A stretch of 64,000 nt of DNA, taken from positions 194,221 through 258,220 of the forward strand of contig JAMLIO010000002.1 of the NCBI GenBank assembly GCA_023954155.1, in the 5' to 3' direction. Below, piece after piece: positions 16,800-27,386 of this stretch. Made by a program: the position numbers and the translations under genes. Every line of letters begins with the position of its first letter. Positions within the stretch are counted from its first letter, which is position 1. Source of the DNA: Pseudobdellovibrionaceae bacterium (lineage in GTDB: Bacteria > Bdellovibrionota > Bdellovibrionia > Bdellovibrionales > UBA1609). The notes under the pieces are model-generated. The model was not told the origin of the DNA. It saw nothing but the letters and a program-made list of their open reading frames with translations, and searched no databases.

Positions 16800-17222
16800 G
16801 GTCCGCCTCCCTTACCAATGAGAAAACAAAACTTATTAACCATAGCCAAATTGGTCAATTTAGGTTTTTTTATGGAATGTATAAGGCAGTGGCTTCTTTA
16901 CCGCTGGAACGCCTTGAGCCCGTTCCAGCGCCTTAAAATCGAGAATTAAGGAAAGGCGAGGAAAAATTGATTGAAAAAATTGCCTTAATTTAAAAGCCCA
17001 AGGCAGTAGTTAACAAAGGTTTCATCTATACTTCGACACCTTCAACCACAAGAACTCTAGCCCGTCGCGAGCTTAAAAAAAAACTGGCGGGCGCAATGTG
17101 AGATGGGTTTAGAACGTGGCTTGCTTAAAAAGTATATCCTTAACCCTTGTGTTTTTTAATGCGGTGTCATTTTGAGATATTAATTCCGCCACTTTTGAAA
17201 CGGCGGAATTATGGCGGAATAA
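16800..17222. other. Gene-free spacer with two small hairpins
   Basis: No credible gene. Hairpins: GCTGGAACG/CGTTCCAGC at 16903-16929 and AATTCCGCC/GGCGGAATT at 17182-17210. The stretch at about 17073-17118 (AAACTGGCGGGC...GTTTAGAAC) is an imperfect copy of the sequence at 17622-17664 that forms part of the large palindrome, so this spacer carries a degraded repeat family. Confidence 0.5.
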
Positions 17223-17494: not shown

Positions 17495-17639
17495 GCCAGT
17501 TCTTTTTTTAAATCCATTATTTTATTCCACGTCGATTGCGAGTTCGGCTTGGCGCAATTTTGCGAACGCAAAATTGTGACAAACGTATGTCTGAGCAATC
17601 GATGTGGAATAAAATAATGGATTTAAAAAAAGAACTGGC
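17495..17639. repeat. Long palindrome A with conserved centre
   Basis: Arms 17495-17538 and 17596-17639 (44 bp each) match at 43 of 44 positions and enclose a 57-nt centre, 17539-17595. The centre contains its own hairpin, CAATTTTGC-GAAC-GCAAAATTG, and is nearly identical to the centres of two other palindromes at 27394-27542 (inverted) and 30044-30194, whose arms are unrelated. It lies between a rightward remnant and a leftward gene. The function is unknown. Confidence 0.92.
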
Positions 17640-19276: not shown

Positions 19277-19607
19277 GCTCACTCCATCACATTTTTTAGG
19301 AAGGTCAATGTTAAGTGATGCATTAAAGTATTTAAGAAAATTTAACGGTGTTTCATTAACACAGCTTTCAAATGAATTGAAAATATCTGTAAGCTACTTG
19401 TCTGAAATCGAGAATGGTAAAAAAAAACCTAACTTGGATATTATAGAAAAATATGCTGAGCGTTTTAAAGTCCGTAAGTCAGCAATCTTGTTTTTCGCAG
19501 AAGAGATAAATGAACAAACATATGGGAATCAATTTTTTAAGAAAAATATTATTAAATTTATGAAAATTATGGATGCTTTCAATGATACAGATGACGAAAC
19601 CTTGTAA
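19269..19607 (+). CDS. XRE-family helix-turn-helix protein of the retron-like operon
   Basis: 112 residues from the ATG at 19269. A canonical XRE helix-turn-helix covers about residues 15-70 (VSLTQLSNELKISVSYLSEIENGKKKPN), with the usual S-x-S-x-x-S-x-I-E-N recognition pattern. A short helical C-terminal extension follows. The start overlaps the 48-aa peptide by 8 bases, and the stop lies inside the RT gene. It is likely a repressor of the operon, perhaps acting at the palindrome 18947-18964, and by analogy with XRE-associated retrons it may act with the RT as part of the defence or antitoxin machinery. Confidence 0.85.
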   Translation: MTKLTPSHFLGRSMLSDALKYLRKFNGVSLTQLSNELKISVSYLSEIENGKKKPNLDIIEKYAERFKVRKSAILFFAEEINEQTYGNQFFKKNIIKFMKIMDAFNDTDDETL

Positions 19608-20547
19608 GCTTTATAGGTTGAAAAATAAAAGACTTTTGGTGAACGTTATTTTAGCCAAAGCAAATATTTCGTTTGCAGAGTTATCTCATATTGTAAAAAA
19701 CCCTAATTCTTATTATAAGGAAAGCCTAAAAGTAACTAAAAAAAAAGATAAAGCAGGTAATTTTAAAACAAGAAAGACTGAAGTGCCATGTCCGAAGTTA
19801 AAATTAATTCATAAAATTTTAAAAAATGAACTTAATAATATCAAAATGCCTGATTATGTAATGGCAACAAAGGGACGAGGGCACGTGCTAAATGCTCAAC
19901 AACATATAGGTTCAAAGTTTTTGTTGAATATGGATATAGCAAATTTTTATCCATCGTCTAGATCTGATTATGTATTTAGATTTTTTTGTGATCAATTAGA
20001 AATGCCAGCAGATATTGCTAAATTTGTGACGGGACTGGTTGTTTATAATCAGCACATCCCAACTGGGAGTCCAATAAGTACAGTTTTAACATATTTGATG
20101 CATAAAGATCTATTTGATGAGATTTTTAATTTATCTTATAAAAATAATATCAAATTTTCTTTATACATCGACGACATGTCATTTTCATCTAACTTACCAA
20201 TTCCGCTCTGGTTTAGAGCCAATGTAAACAAAATAATAAAAAAACATAATTTAAAAATCAAAAAATCTAAGACTAAGGCTTTTGGGAGCAACAGAGTTAA
20301 ATCTGTAACTGGTGTTGAAATTGCCTTAGATAATACATTAAAGGCTCCTTATAAGTTGACTGCTAAGTTGTTTGGCGAGGAATTTATAAAAATTAAAAAA
20401 AATGGAGTTCAAGTATTAAGTGATAAGGAGTTAATGGTTTTAATGGGATATTTGTGCTCTGTTAGGTCTATAGAACATGATGCATATCCAACGTTATATA
20501 ATACTTTAATAAGTGAACAACGTAGAAGGCAAAAGAAAGTAAGTTAA
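19573..20547 (+). CDS. Retron-type reverse transcriptase
   Basis: Up to 324 residues (ATG 19573; ATGs at 19582 and 19591 are also possible), the usual size of retron RTs. Retron hallmarks are visible: NAxxH as NAQQH (residues 107-111), FLLNMDIANFYPS with a catalytic Asp (121), PTGSPIS (about 163-169), the catalytic box YIDD (198-201) and the VTG triplet (245-247). The box is YIDD rather than the common YADD, and the usual QG before SP is TG. The C-terminal segment (about 255-324) would be the thumb that binds its own RNA. The gene overlaps the XRE gene by up to 35 bases. The enzyme should copy part of the upstream RNA into msDNA. Retrons act in anti-phage defence. Confidence 0.9.
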   Translation: MLSMIQMTKPCKLYRLKNKRLLVNVILAKANISFAELSHIVKNPNSYYKESLKVTKKKDKAGNFKTRKTEVPCPKLKLIHKILKNELNNIKMPDYVMATKGRGHVLNAQQHIGSKFLLNMDIANFYPSSRSDYVFRFFCDQLEMPADIAKFVTGLVVYNQHIPTGSPISTVLTYLMHKDLFDEIFNLSYKNNIKFSLYIDDMSFSSNLPIPLWFRANVNKIIKKHNLKIKKSKTKAFGSNRVKSVTGVEIALDNTLKAPYKLTAKLFGEEFIKIKKNGVQVLSDKELMVLMGYLCSVRSIEHDAYPTLYNTLISEQRRRQKKVS

Positions 20548-20595: not shown

Positions 20596-21192
20596 CTAGT
20601 CTGTTAATTCATAGTTAAAAACTAATAAATACTTTGTAAGTTTAAGAATGGTATTTGCATTATCTTCTGTATAAATTTTTATAGTATGATTTGCTTCATT
20701 CCCCATTATTCTGATTTTCTCTACTGAGGGTCTTCCTTTAGGTGGTATTAAGCCACTTTCATTTAAAAAGTCTATATATTGTGTAAAGGCGAGCCCTTCT
20801 TTTGCACCATTTTCAACGCTTAAATTCATTAAAATTTTTCTACATAACATGACAACAGAAGTAAATGATGAAACAGAAAAAGAAGCTAAAGCTTCTTTGT
20901 ACAAATTTGCTACTAATTCAGGAACGTTATCGGGGAGAGTGTATTCGCTGAAAAGTGGAAATTGAGACCCGTAGCTAAACAAAGTTGGAGCGCGGCAGTT
21001 CGGACAAATCTGGATAATATTACTGCTATTAGCATCTCCAAAGCTTTTATTTGAGTGTATTTGTTTAGTGCAAAATGGACACAAATAATTACGTGCGTAA
21101 TCAATTCGTTTCCATTCATAAACATTATATGTATTAATACCAAAATTTTGAGGATCTTTTTTCACCTGCGCTCCAGGTTTAATTCTAGCCAT
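20596..21192 (-). CDS. Zinc-ribbon plus DUF4145 protein
   Basis: A 198-residue protein. A zinc ribbon with CPFC and CPNC pairs (about residues 38-65) is followed by a helical DUF4145 domain (about 95-195) with the pattern VVMLCRKILMNL...FLNESGLIP...GNEANHT. DUF4145 domains occur alone or fused to restriction and other defence proteins. The gene has a good AAGGAAAC ribosome-binding site and is convergent with the RT gene, with 48 bases between stops. It may be an independent island gene or an accessory of the retron-like locus. Confidence 0.75.
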   Translation of the reverse strand: MARIKPGAQVKKDPQNFGINTYNVYEWKRIDYARNYLCPFCTKQIHSNKSFGDANSSNIIQICPNCRAPTLFSYGSQFPLFSEYTLPDNVPELVANLYKEALASFSVSSFTSVVMLCRKILMNLSVENGAKEGLAFTQYIDFLNESGLIPPKGRPSVEKIRIMGNEANHTIKIYTEDNANTILKLTKYLLVFNYELTD

Positions 21193-23076: not shown

Positions 23077-23269
23077 TATGCTCTCCTTACATGGGTGCGC
23101 TATGAGTGTTTATCGGAATAGGGTCTAGAAATATTTAAGAAAAATCATAAACCAAAAGAAGTGTTTCAAAATAAGGCGGGCCTTTGGGCAGGGGTCTAGT
23201 TTTTGATTCAAATTAGCAAGCTTTAATAAAAATTCCCCGATAACAAATTCAGTTATGGTTTTAAATGGT

Positions 23270-25063
23270 ATGAAAAAAATCTTACAGAAGTCCTTTGTGA
23301 AAAAAGTGGTGCTTGTTGCCAGTAGTGCTAATTTGATTTTAGCTCCAGCAATGTCTTCAGCAATGGAGATCGTTTTTGACAAGACCTACAATATTTCCAG
23401 AAAAGCCAATATGACCACTCTAAACTGGAAGACGGTGTCTTTTGAAAAGCTGAGTGGCAACAGAGTGAAATACAAATTAGTTGCTGAACATCCAAATGCA
23501 AAAAGTTTAGAATACTTGCAGAATGTGGATGCTGTCGTATCTGAAGACATTAAATCCAGACTTGTTAGAAAATTTGATATTGTGACATCTAATATTGAAT
23601 TTAAAAACGGAGAGGCTCACTTTGAGCTAGAACTGCCCTATGACTTCGAAACCAGATATCTGCCAGTCAAGTTGGTTAAAGATAATGGTTATGAGGACTA
23701 TGTGGTGAGATTTAGATTTGGAGACTACAGATTTTTAGTCGCCAATAAACTGATCAACAATGCCGTTAAGAAAGATATTTCTAATATTGCCTCGAAAGAT
23801 CCCAATGATTTGTATCAAGTTCGACGACAAGCAAAGCGACGTGTGATCATCAGAAAACAAGAGTCAACGGTTCCTGTGATCTCTGTGGATGAGATTTATG
23901 CAGCTTCTAAGTCTGCAACGAGCGGCAGTGTTGCTAGTGAGACTGCAGGACAGCGTACACAGGCCTCCGAAACCCCTGCGGTTAAAGAAGAGCAATCCTT
24001 ATTTTCACAGTTTGAAAATTTAGCCAACCAATACGGTACGGATACTGTGGATGTGAAAAAGGCCATTGCTAGAGAAGAGGCCGCTGAGGCAAATTCTATA
24101 GACCACGAGTCATCTAGCCTTGCAGAGGTTTTACCAGAGAAGACTGTCTCTGCATCAGAAGTGGATCGACTTATTGGTATTGAGAGTATGACTTTTGAGG
24201 ATCATGCGGCGAACAACGAAGAAGATGAAGTGCTTGAGTTTAATGCAGACGCTATGGATGCCACTGAGACGGTGACTGAAGTGACAAGTGCGCAACCTGA
24301 AGCCACCGAGCAGACTCCAGAATGGATCACGCCCGCAGAAAAGCCACAACTTGTTGAACAAAAAATCGACGAAATTCAAGAAGAAGAACCTTCTTACGAA
24401 GATTATGAAGGCAGCTTATTTTCCAAATTTGAAAGTGCGGCTAATAAATATAATGAAAGACTAGATCAGATTCAAAAAACCAATGAAGAAGAGATCAAAA
24501 TGAGTCAAGAGGCCGCAGAGCGTAAGGAACGCGAAGAAGAGATGGTCTCAGCCCCTGCGGATCTTGCTGATCAGTTACAAGAAAAACTAGCCGAACAAAA
24601 TGCAGAAGTGGTTGAAGAAAAACCGTCTCAAAATGAGTTCTTAGTTTATGAAGAAGCTGAAGCTTTAGATGAAGAGGACTTTATCACCCATACTCCAACG
24701 ACAAGCACAGAGGTCGCTAGTATAAGTCCCACTGTTATTGAGGATGAATACACTAAGGTACCAGATGACGGTTCGATTCCTTGGTTAGAAACTGGAACTA
24801 CAACTGATGCTGTATTAAATAAAAATACCGATTCACAAAGAGACCTGTCTTCAACGACACCGTCTGTATATGATGTGGCTCCGCAAGAGTGGGTTTTTAA
24901 ATTCAGTAAAGGCTTTGTATTCAAAAGCACTTTATCTAAAAATTCTGAAGACGAATCCAGAGAGCCTAGTTCTAAAAAAGACGAAGGGTCTTTTGAAGAC
25001 TATGAATCAGGCGTGAGCTTTGAAGATGAAGAGCTGGGTTTAGATTTTAAAAAAAAAGATTAG
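23270..25063 (+). CDS. Large acidic exported protein, N-terminal part (frame ends at an A9 tract)
   Basis: About 597 residues from ATG 23270. A signal-like N-terminus (KKVVLVASSANLILAPAMSSA) is followed by a folded domain of about 170 residues and then a long acidic, low-complexity region. That region contains two related motifs, SLFSQFENLANQYG and SLFSKFESAANKYN, and two EDYE boxes. The frame stops at 25061, just after TTTT followed by nine As. The next frame (-1) is open from there for about 335 codons without any credible start, so the gene appears to be one unit of about 935 residues divided by a frameshift. Confidence 0.7.
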   Translation: MKKILQKSFVKKVVLVASSANLILAPAMSSAMEIVFDKTYNISRKANMTTLNWKTVSFEKLSGNRVKYKLVAEHPNAKSLEYLQNVDAVVSEDIKSRLVRKFDIVTSNIEFKNGEAHFELELPYDFETRYLPVKLVKDNGYEDYVVRFRFGDYRFLVANKLINNAVKKDISNIASKDPNDLYQVRRQAKRRVIIRKQESTVPVISVDEIYAASKSATSGSVASETAGQRTQASETPAVKEEQSLFSQFENLANQYGTDTVDVKKAIAREEAAEANSIDHESSSLAEVLPEKTVSASEVDRLIGIESMTFEDHAANNEEDEVLEFNADAMDATETVTEVTSAQPEATEQTPEWITPAEKPQLVEQKIDEIQEEEPSYEDYEGSLFSKFESAANKYNERLDQIQKTNEEEIKMSQEAAERKEREEEMVSAPADLADQLQEKLAEQNAEVVEEKPSQNEFLVYEEAEALDEEDFITHTPTTSTEVASISPTVIEDEYTKVPDDGSIPWLETGTTTDAVLNKNTDSQRDLSSTTPSVYDVAPQEWVFKFSKGFVFKSTLSKNSEDESREPSSKKDEGSFEDYESGVSFEDEELGLDFKKKD

Positions 25064-26067
25064 AGACTGAATTTCTAGTTGCCAGCCAAGACCTAAGACC
25101 TGTTTGGAAGTACTTAGCGCAAGCTCATATCGCATCTGGGGCTGAAGCTGCAGTTGAGTTTGAAGCTGAAGTATCTTCCCAAGAAGCGACCATTCAAACT
25201 CATCAAGATGCTCCCCCTCAAGAGAACCCAGAAACTAGTGCGTCTGAAGCTGTTGTGACAGAAGAGCCGCCCTCAAATTTGACAGAGCAGTCAGTCGAAG
25301 CTCCACCTAAAGACGATAATCCTACACCCAAAGCCTTAGTGGTGCCCATGGGGAGTGCAAGGCCAAATCTCTTTAAGTTCACGACTCAACAAGAAACCGA
25401 TTTTTCTTTTAAACTCAGAGCGTTTGCGGGTCTAACGGCTTCTATGAGCACATATCAAGAGTCTTTACCTTTTGAGTACACCTCTTTAAAACTTCCTGCT
25501 TGGAGTGTGGAAGCACAGATGCGAGTGCAGAATTTTTTATTAGAAGGGGACTTTAAAAGTCTGCCAGGAAAAGTTCACAGTGATTCAGGACATCTTAATT
25601 TTTATGGTTGGCGCTACAGGCATTTGTGGGGAAGTGTCAGTTTGGGATGGCTGTTTGAAGACACTCATCATATTTATTTAAAAAGTATGGTGCATTATGC
25701 TCCCATACTGTTTCCGACTCTTGTGGGGCCCTTTCATACAGAAGCTGCGTTGGAAAAAGTCTTACTGTTTGGCGTGGGTGTGGGGTATAAAGCTGACTTT
25801 TCGTTTTATGACTGGCCTTTCACTCTGCAACTAGACCTTTTCAATGTGATGACCAACGATCCTGCTTATGACTTAAAATATGGACTTGCGTGGAATGTGA
25901 GGCTTACCCGTTACCATGAATGGAGAAATATCAGATTGGGTGTTTCCTACGATCAGGTGGGGCAGGCATTGAGCTTTACCGAGCTTCATACGGGGCAATA
26001 TTATCCCGTCAAATCCTTTATAAGACTTCACCAAATTCTTTTGCACGTCGAATTCCCTTTGCTGTAG
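25058..26067 (+). CDS. C-terminal beta-barrel-like part of the split acidic protein
   Basis: An open frame of about 335 codons in the -1 frame relative to the preceding gene. It begins inside the A9 region and ends at 26067. No ribosome-binding site or ATG lies near its beginning, and the first 80 residues continue the acidic, Pro/Glu-rich composition of the preceding frame. Residues from about 125 on have strand patterns with many aromatics (FYGWRYRHLWGSVSLGWLF) typical of an outer-membrane barrel. It is most simply the C-terminal domain of the same protein, reached by programmed slippage or lost by mutation. Confidence 0.6.
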
Positions 26068-26177: not shown

Positions 26178-26924
26178 TTGCCTGTTGTATCAATTATCAA
26201 TCAAAAAGGTGGAGTTGCGAAGACAACTACTGCCGTCAACGTCGCACATGAATGGTCTAATATGGGAAAGAGGGTTTTGCTCATTGACTTGGACCCTCAA
26301 GCCTCTGCCACAAAGTCGATCTTTGGGGATACGGAATTTGAATACACTTCGTTTAATGCGATTACACACACAGCTTCTGCCAAGCAGATCATTCAAAGGT
26401 CAGAAAGCTTTGGCATTGATGTGATGCCTGGAGAGATTTTACTCAGTGGTGTGGACATCAAACTTGCCGCACAGTTTGGACGCGAGAAGTATTTGCGCCG
26501 CAGTCTGATGCCAGTAAAGTCCAACTACGACGCCATTATTATTGATTGTTCACCCACTTTGGGACTTTTAACGGTCAATGCCTTAATGGCCTCTGATGAG
26601 ATCATCATTCCGATCTGCCCAGAGTACTTTTCTCTTAAGGGCATTGAGTTGATTTTAGACACCTTACGCAATATCCGTGCAGGCTTAGGCCATAACGTGA
26701 AGATCAAGGGCATTATCATCACCAGATTTAAAAATCGTAAGGTGATTGGTTCTGTGATTGATCGAGTGGGTGAGCTGTATGGGCTTAAAGTTTTTGAAGA
26801 TTATATTCCAGATAACATTGCAGTAGAGGAAGCTCATCATTTGCACTTGCCAGTGAAAAAACATTCACCAGATTCTAAAGCGGCACAAGCCTATGCGGAT
26901 CTGGCTAAGGAACTTTGGGATTAG
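26178..26924 (+). CDS. ParA-family ATPase (orphan)
   Basis: A 248-residue protein starting at TTG 26178, with AGGAG 6 bases upstream. The deviant Walker A NQKGGVAKTT (residues 8-17), LIDLDPQAS and IIIDCSPTLG identify the ParA/MinD/Soj group. No ParB gene or parS-like repeat follows. The partner is instead a 150-residue unknown. Orphan ParAs position protein clusters, pili or chemoreceptors on the nucleoid or at the pole, so a role in placing the large envelope protein encoded upstream is possible. Confidence 0.9.
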   Translation: MPVVSIINQKGGVAKTTTAVNVAHEWSNMGKRVLLIDLDPQASATKSIFGDTEFEYTSFNAITHTASAKQIIQRSESFGIDVMPGEILLSGVDIKLAAQFGREKYLRRSLMPVKSNYDAIIIDCSPTLGLLTVNALMASDEIIIPICPEYFSLKGIELILDTLRNIRAGLGHNVKIKGIIITRFKNRKVIGSVIDRVGELYGLKVFEDYIPDNIAVEEAHHLHLPVKKHSPDSKAAQAYADLAKELWD

Positions 26925-26933
26925 GGCTACCGA

Positions 26934-27386
26934 ATGACACAAAAAGATAATCCTCTTTTTCAAGATTCTACCATCTCTACAGGGACTAACATTCGTACAC
27001 AGTTTGAACTGGGTAAGGTTTTTCTTTATGAAGGCGAATCGGTTTGTCTTTTACTAAAGGATGGCAAAGAGCAAAGAGTTCTGGGCATGAGATGTATTGA
27101 TGCCAAGACAGGAACTTACACCTGTTCCCATTGGCTTAAACACCGTCAAGAGATCACTTATCAGTTTGCTATTAAAAACAAAGAAGGCGTAGTCTTTCAA
27201 AGTCCTATTCAAAAGGGGCTTGCGATGTACACTTTACTTGAAGTGTGGGAACCCTGCTTAGATGAGGATCAGGTCGTCATGGCTGATCTTTGCGAAACTC
27301 TAATTGAAGATGTGCAAGAAGAAGTGGAAGCCAGTGGGGAGCCTGAGGATGTCATCGGGAACTTGATTGACAAGTGGGGCCTCTAG
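26934..27386 (+). CDS. Unknown protein coupled to ParA
   Basis: A 150-residue protein starting 9 bases after the parA stop. The N-terminal 100 residues look like a compact beta-rich domain, including VFLYEGESVCLLLKDGKEQRVLGM. The last 35 residues are very acidic (DVQEEVEASGEPEDVIGN), a tail of the kind that could contact a ParA. No family recognised. A long palindrome begins 7 bases after its stop. Confidence 0.65.
   Translation: MTQKDNPLFQDSTISTGTNIRTQFELGKVFLYEGESVCLLLKDGKEQRVLGMRCIDAKTGTYTCSHWLKHRQEITYQFAIKNKEGVVFQSPIQKGLAMYTLLEVWEPCLDEDQVVMADLCETLIEDVQEEVEASGEPEDVIGNLIDKWGL

Follow-up and report, generated by a model that had tools for sequence, protein, structure and literature searches.

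A predicted outer-membrane barrel gene interrupted at a nine-adenine tract, a candidate for bridging by RNA polymerase slippage

When two long reading frames meet at a run of nine adenines, are we looking at two genes, at one gene broken by mutation or by an error of assembly, or at one gene whose halves are rejoined during expression? This question is raised by a locus in a 64,000-nucleotide stretch of DNA (the window) from an uncultured Bdellovibrio-like bacterium of the Pseudobdellovibrionaceae, for which a preliminary description proposed an acidic envelope protein split by a -1 shift, with transcriptional slippage or ribosomal shifting giving a short soluble and a long barrel-anchored form. 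The break involves three elements:

ORF1: 23255-25063, + strand, 602 aa, holding a probable signal peptide, an N-terminal beta domain and an acidic linker, and ending D-TAG
A9 tract: 25049-25057, + strand, read AAA AAA AAA in frame 0
ORF2: 25051-26067, + strand, in the -1 frame, 338 codons open, 335 of them past the tract, with no start before GTG 25255

The sequence here runs TTTT (25045-25048), A9 (25049-25057) and GAT, followed by the TAG at 25061-25063, which places the ORF1 stop one codon 3' of the tract (an internal ATG at 23270 is an alternative start, giving 597 aa). On the 5' side the -1 frame is shut by a TAA at 25048-25050 that overlaps the start of the tract, and because the open frames share 25051-25060 only, the frame can change at A9 alone. 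Over the following 1014 nt the ORF2 frame is free of stops, whereas the two remaining frames contain 19 and 21; its coding signal starts immediately 3' of the tract, the codon-usage score per codon is 0.21 in ORF1 and 0.23 over the first 68 codons past the tract, and there is no sign of decay across the 335 codons. The earliest ORF2 start is the GTG at 25255, some 200 bases in, with an in-frame ATG further 3', and inspection of the sequence revealed neither a plausible ribosome-binding site at these starts nor a signal peptide after them. The preliminary description had read the site in just this way: a first frame ending just past TTTT-A9, then an open -1 frame of the same composition, with no start signals. 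An A8 run, for its part, is not rare in the 64-kb window given its dinucleotide composition.

What would be encoded by the two frames together? Reading through both of them gives the following layout:

Probable signal peptide: 23270-23362, + strand, MKKILQKSFVKKVVLVASSANLILAPAMSSA, recognised by sequence inspection only
N-terminal beta-rich domain: 23363-23749, + strand, common to the orthologue and the barrel-less paralogue described below
Acidic linker: 23750-25329, + strand, 527 aa with a net charge of about -71, spanning the frame break
C-terminal outer-membrane beta-barrel: 25330-26064, + strand, 10 strands in an AlphaFold2 model

The AlphaFold2 (AF2) model of the N-terminal domain is mainly beta (pLDDT 68.8), and comparison with the PDB gave no match at E<=0.001. 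For the C-terminal domain (25330-26064), AlphaFold2 places 10 long beta strands (pLDDT 67.7) in what is predicted to be a closed barrel with an even strand number, and its matches in the PDB are barrels, which bears out the barrel-like domain of the preliminary description. The best fold match is OpcA (VIA-align Z 15.6, rmsd 3.2 over 193 residues), and OmpT/Pla score Z of about 13-14 with the same program. These are 10-stranded outer-membrane barrels, like the predicted domain in strand number and fold; as sequence identity in those alignments is just 5-8%, only a common fold is shown. The barrel here also differs from OpcA and OmpT/Pla in being preceded by a large N-terminal domain and an acidic linker. 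Neither half matches any family in Pfam or NCBIfam. Taken together, the models predict that the product is an outer-membrane protein, comprising an exported beta domain, an acidic linker and a 10-stranded barrel. As ORF2 starts without a signal peptide, the barrel would presumably not be exportable from ORF2 alone.

Relatives of the gene were sought with each half as a single sequence in 59 related genomes, and with profiles of the gene in 141 genomes of the order. In the first search, both halves matched the same single other genome, a related Bdellovibrionales MAG (L042), which carries both in one uninterrupted 555-aa ORF (716-2383). The N-terminal domain is 29-30% identical to its counterpart there (E 1.4e-19) and the barrel 31%. 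That ORF lies directly upstream of a ParA gene with 69% identity and of the same 150-aa partner as in our window, where the two neighbours are:

ParA-family ATPase: 26178-26924, + strand, a conserved neighbour used for synteny
150-aa ORF: 26934-27386, + strand, the conserved partner of ParA across Bdellovibrionales

Because a single-ORF orthologue holds both halves, ORF1 and ORF2 are one gene, not two, interrupted at A9. The preliminary description had named a relative with an uninterrupted gene as grounds for refuting its reading, and the only relative found is of this kind: the tract and the split are absent from L042, a distant orthologue (about 30% identity) whose A runs do not exceed five. 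This single orthologue thus offers no evidence that the tract is conserved.

When relatives were sought with the neighbouring ParA gene, nearly all of those found belonged to the Bdellovibrionales. As an observation on this neighbourhood, ParA and the 150-aa ORF (26178-27386) are paired in 23 of 24 loci, the exception being a Planctomycetota match, and the gene upstream of the pair varies across most loci. In other Bdellovibrionales (L049, L050, L052 and Bdellovibrio bacteriovorus, L061), the genes upstream of ParA were tested for remote homology to ours, and none matched significantly. The gene itself was found in 2 of the 141 genomes of the order, and one genome (L041) has matching neighbours without it; on this distribution it is dispensable and sporadic, and it is fast-evolving. 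A paralogue in the same genome (C8:9773-10504, L006) combines the N-terminal domain with an acidic tail but lacks a barrel, and its existence indicates that a protein of this type can at least be viable without one. The L042 orthologue and this paralogue were the only homologues found in the searches of 59 and 141 genomes, and phages and viral contigs gave no match to the gene.

Could the break simply reflect poor base-calling in long runs? For each homopolymer in the whole genome (2.44 Mb in 15 contigs, with 1712 confident genes) we compared the best-scoring coding frame before the run with that after it. Across the 2.44 Mb, this A9 is the only homopolymer of at least 7 that breaks a coding frame. 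Frame is kept at all 88 A8/T8 runs and all 84 G/C runs of at least 6 that could be scored, as it is at the remaining 15 A9/T9+ runs within genes. Eight A7/T7 runs with a changed best-scoring frame were set aside as ordinary gene junctions or overlapping-frame artefacts. Since the other scored A/T runs of at least 8 keep frame, systematic miscalling of homopolymers is unlikely.

The same genes allow us to consider how the genome tolerates such runs. With synonymous codons shuffled within the 1712 genes to obtain expected counts, coding A9+ runs number 11 against 118.7 expected (sd 7.6) and coding T9+ runs 5 against 54.2, so that the pooled count (16 against 173) shows about a tenfold depletion, whereas coding A7 runs are in excess (845, with 713.5 expected). 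Baranov et al. (2005, PMC1088944) took an abrupt fall of this kind, which many genomes show at nine, as a criterion for slippage-prone genomes and as a mark of selection against transcriptional slippage. Indirectly but strongly, these counts suggest that this organism pays a cost for runs of nine bases; part of the same selection could stem from replication slippage. By the same token, the A9 appears to behave here like a slippage-prone tract.

Some further runs and features deserve mention in their own right. Outside called genes, A9/T9+ runs are dense: of 55 in all, about 39 fall in this roughly 0.44 Mb. G13, C13 and C10 runs lie at or near contig ends (the end of C3, 600-700 of C4 and the start of C1) and are possibly sequencing artefacts at assembly breaks. 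Elsewhere in the window, a reverse transcriptase gene (19573-20547, + strand; PF00078, E 6.9e-11) has an in-frame A9 at 19738 and is flanked by an opposite-strand protein of unknown type (20596-21192), an arrangement that is possibly retron-like; a duplicated copy of this gene, suspected in the window, proved absent. At about 17495-17639 lies a 145-bp imperfect palindrome, 84% self-complementary, in an ORF-poor region that also contains A9 runs at 17075 and 17398.

How, then, might the two halves be expressed? We put at about 0.5 the probability that the gene interrupted by A9 is bridged by RNA polymerase slippage, giving short and long forms, with a tract that is itself variable in length. 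Standard decoding would yield the 602-aa exported form without a barrel as the main product. Slippage of RNA polymerase on A9 would add an extra A in part of the mRNA, and this A would join the frames into a roughly 937-aa barrel-anchored protein, a minority product, with the peptide ...LDFKKKRLETEF... expected across the junction. Replication slippage probably varies the length of the tract too, and the present A9 is therefore most likely one state of a variable tract. That the tract slips, in which direction and ratio its products arise, and that both forms are exported are what we infer. Nine-base runs of A or T are sites of efficient slippage in living bacteria (PMC5009743). For the frames to be joined, the mRNA must gain one A or lose two, or else the ribosome must shift by -1, and in an E. 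coli reporter study insertions outnumbered deletions threefold, while poly(A) slipped less than poly(T) (PMC6260861). One candidate structure lies directly 5' of the tract:

Weak RNA hairpin: 25004-25048, + strand, -11.7 kcal/mol

The hairpin ranks in about the top 4% of the gene's 45-nt windows and was picked after looking. The known case of a 5' hairpin promotes deletion (PMC5009743), whereas the locus here needs insertion. The genome's own dnaX, considered as an internal control, has no A run over six and thus provides no precedent.

The same run of As could instead be read by the ribosome, and programmed -1 frameshifting on A_AAA_AAA (25051-25057) as the main route to the long form has some features to recommend it: the heptamer is of the X_XXY_YYZ type in the right phase and direction, the sole tRNA-Lys found in the genome has the anticodon UUU, and the stop is the second codon past the slip site. 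Yet the downstream 45-nt windows, of average or below-average stability, revealed no 3' frameshift stimulator, and in E. coli frameshift-prone heptamers without a stimulator increase frameshifting only 2- to 10-fold from a background close to 0.05% (PMC4066793). With no such stimulator found, we rank transcriptional slippage above ribosomal -1 shifting, which we hold to be very unlikely as the main route. Of the two mechanisms offered by the preliminary description, what stands is a break lying exactly on an A9 that resembles slippage-prone tracts; the ribosomal route loses ground. Still further down the scale we place two separate genes, with ORF2 translated from its own start: possible starts exist in the GTG at 25255 and in an ATG further 3', but the lack of a plausible ribosome-binding site and of a signal peptide on inspection, the coding signal that begins right at the 3' side of the tract and the fused orthologue make this hardly credible.

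More serious are those readings in which nothing bridges the gap. Perhaps replication slippage has recently truncated the gene, as a loss-of-function indel or a phase-off state with no useful bridging. Singleton frameshifts with intact homologues have been attributed to errors or indel mutations (Antonov et al. 2013, PMC3711429), the gene is sporadic and fast-evolving, and in Vibrio cholerae manA, A9 tracts undergo reversible changes of length that modify a surface antigen (PMC3441752). Against this, ORF2 is undecayed over 335 codons, for which reason any indel must be recent or tolerated; a single deletion needs a ten-A precursor, and an in-frame A10 occurs in one other gene only; and transcriptional slippage at the tract, if it occurs, would still supply some of the long form. 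All in all, we consider a recent indel unlikely, if deserving to be taken seriously. An error confined to this one homopolymer, the true gene being a single ORF, is in our estimation more doubtful: errors are likeliest in the longest A runs and the relative L042 is uninterrupted, but the genome-wide comparison (0/88 A8/T8 runs, 0/84 G/C runs of at least 6 and 0/15 other A9/T9+ runs breaking frame) speaks against it.

It is tempting to go beyond bridging and to posit a maintained switch, in which a selected A9 would set the ratio of soluble periplasmic to barrel-anchored protein in a genome that otherwise purges coding A9. This we regard as a tentative and rather improbable idea: conservation, the chief criterion for a programmed event, does not hold as far as one distant orthologue can tell, the 5' hairpin is weak, and no 3' stimulator was found. 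A single genome does not decide between design and accident. As for the short soluble and long barrel-anchored forms of the preliminary description, the assignment of both frames to one gene holds, while their being a programmed or useful output is conjecture.

Should bridging by slippage be real, an outer-membrane barrel protein would join the short list of slippage-decoded bacterial genes; a limited literature search found no case of slippage in predatory-type bacteria. Should there be only an indel, this is an ordinary disrupted gene. In either event, comparing a break with all runs of the same length in the genome is a cheap test against bad assembly.

The closest precedent for the proposed bridging is tssM1 of Citrobacter rodentium, where an envelope protein has a poly-A run just 5' of the stop and added As join the frames, producing a short form without the C-terminal beta-domain and, by way of a slipping A11, a long form at about 25% (PMC4256274). 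There too, the whole protein is encoded by related canonical genes, as with the L042 orthologue here, and since tssM1 slips though its related genes are uninterrupted, an uninterrupted relative is compatible with slippage. The two cases differ in the tract (A11 there, A9 here), in protein family and in the C-terminal part, which here is a predicted membrane barrel; moreover, slippage, ratio and function were measured for tssM1, whereas our locus is known from sequence alone. Two experimentally proven systems likewise turn a homopolymer run into two protein lengths (PMC1088944): in Shigella mxiE slippage is required for the longer product, as proposed here, although the run there is of Us, while Thermus dnaX has nine As, as here, but slippage there yields the short form. 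Finally, Vibrio cholerae manA (A9) and wbeL (A8) are poly-A contingency loci in cell-surface genes, in which a one-base change truncates the protein; their variation has been observed between strains, against the one genome available here (PMC3441752).
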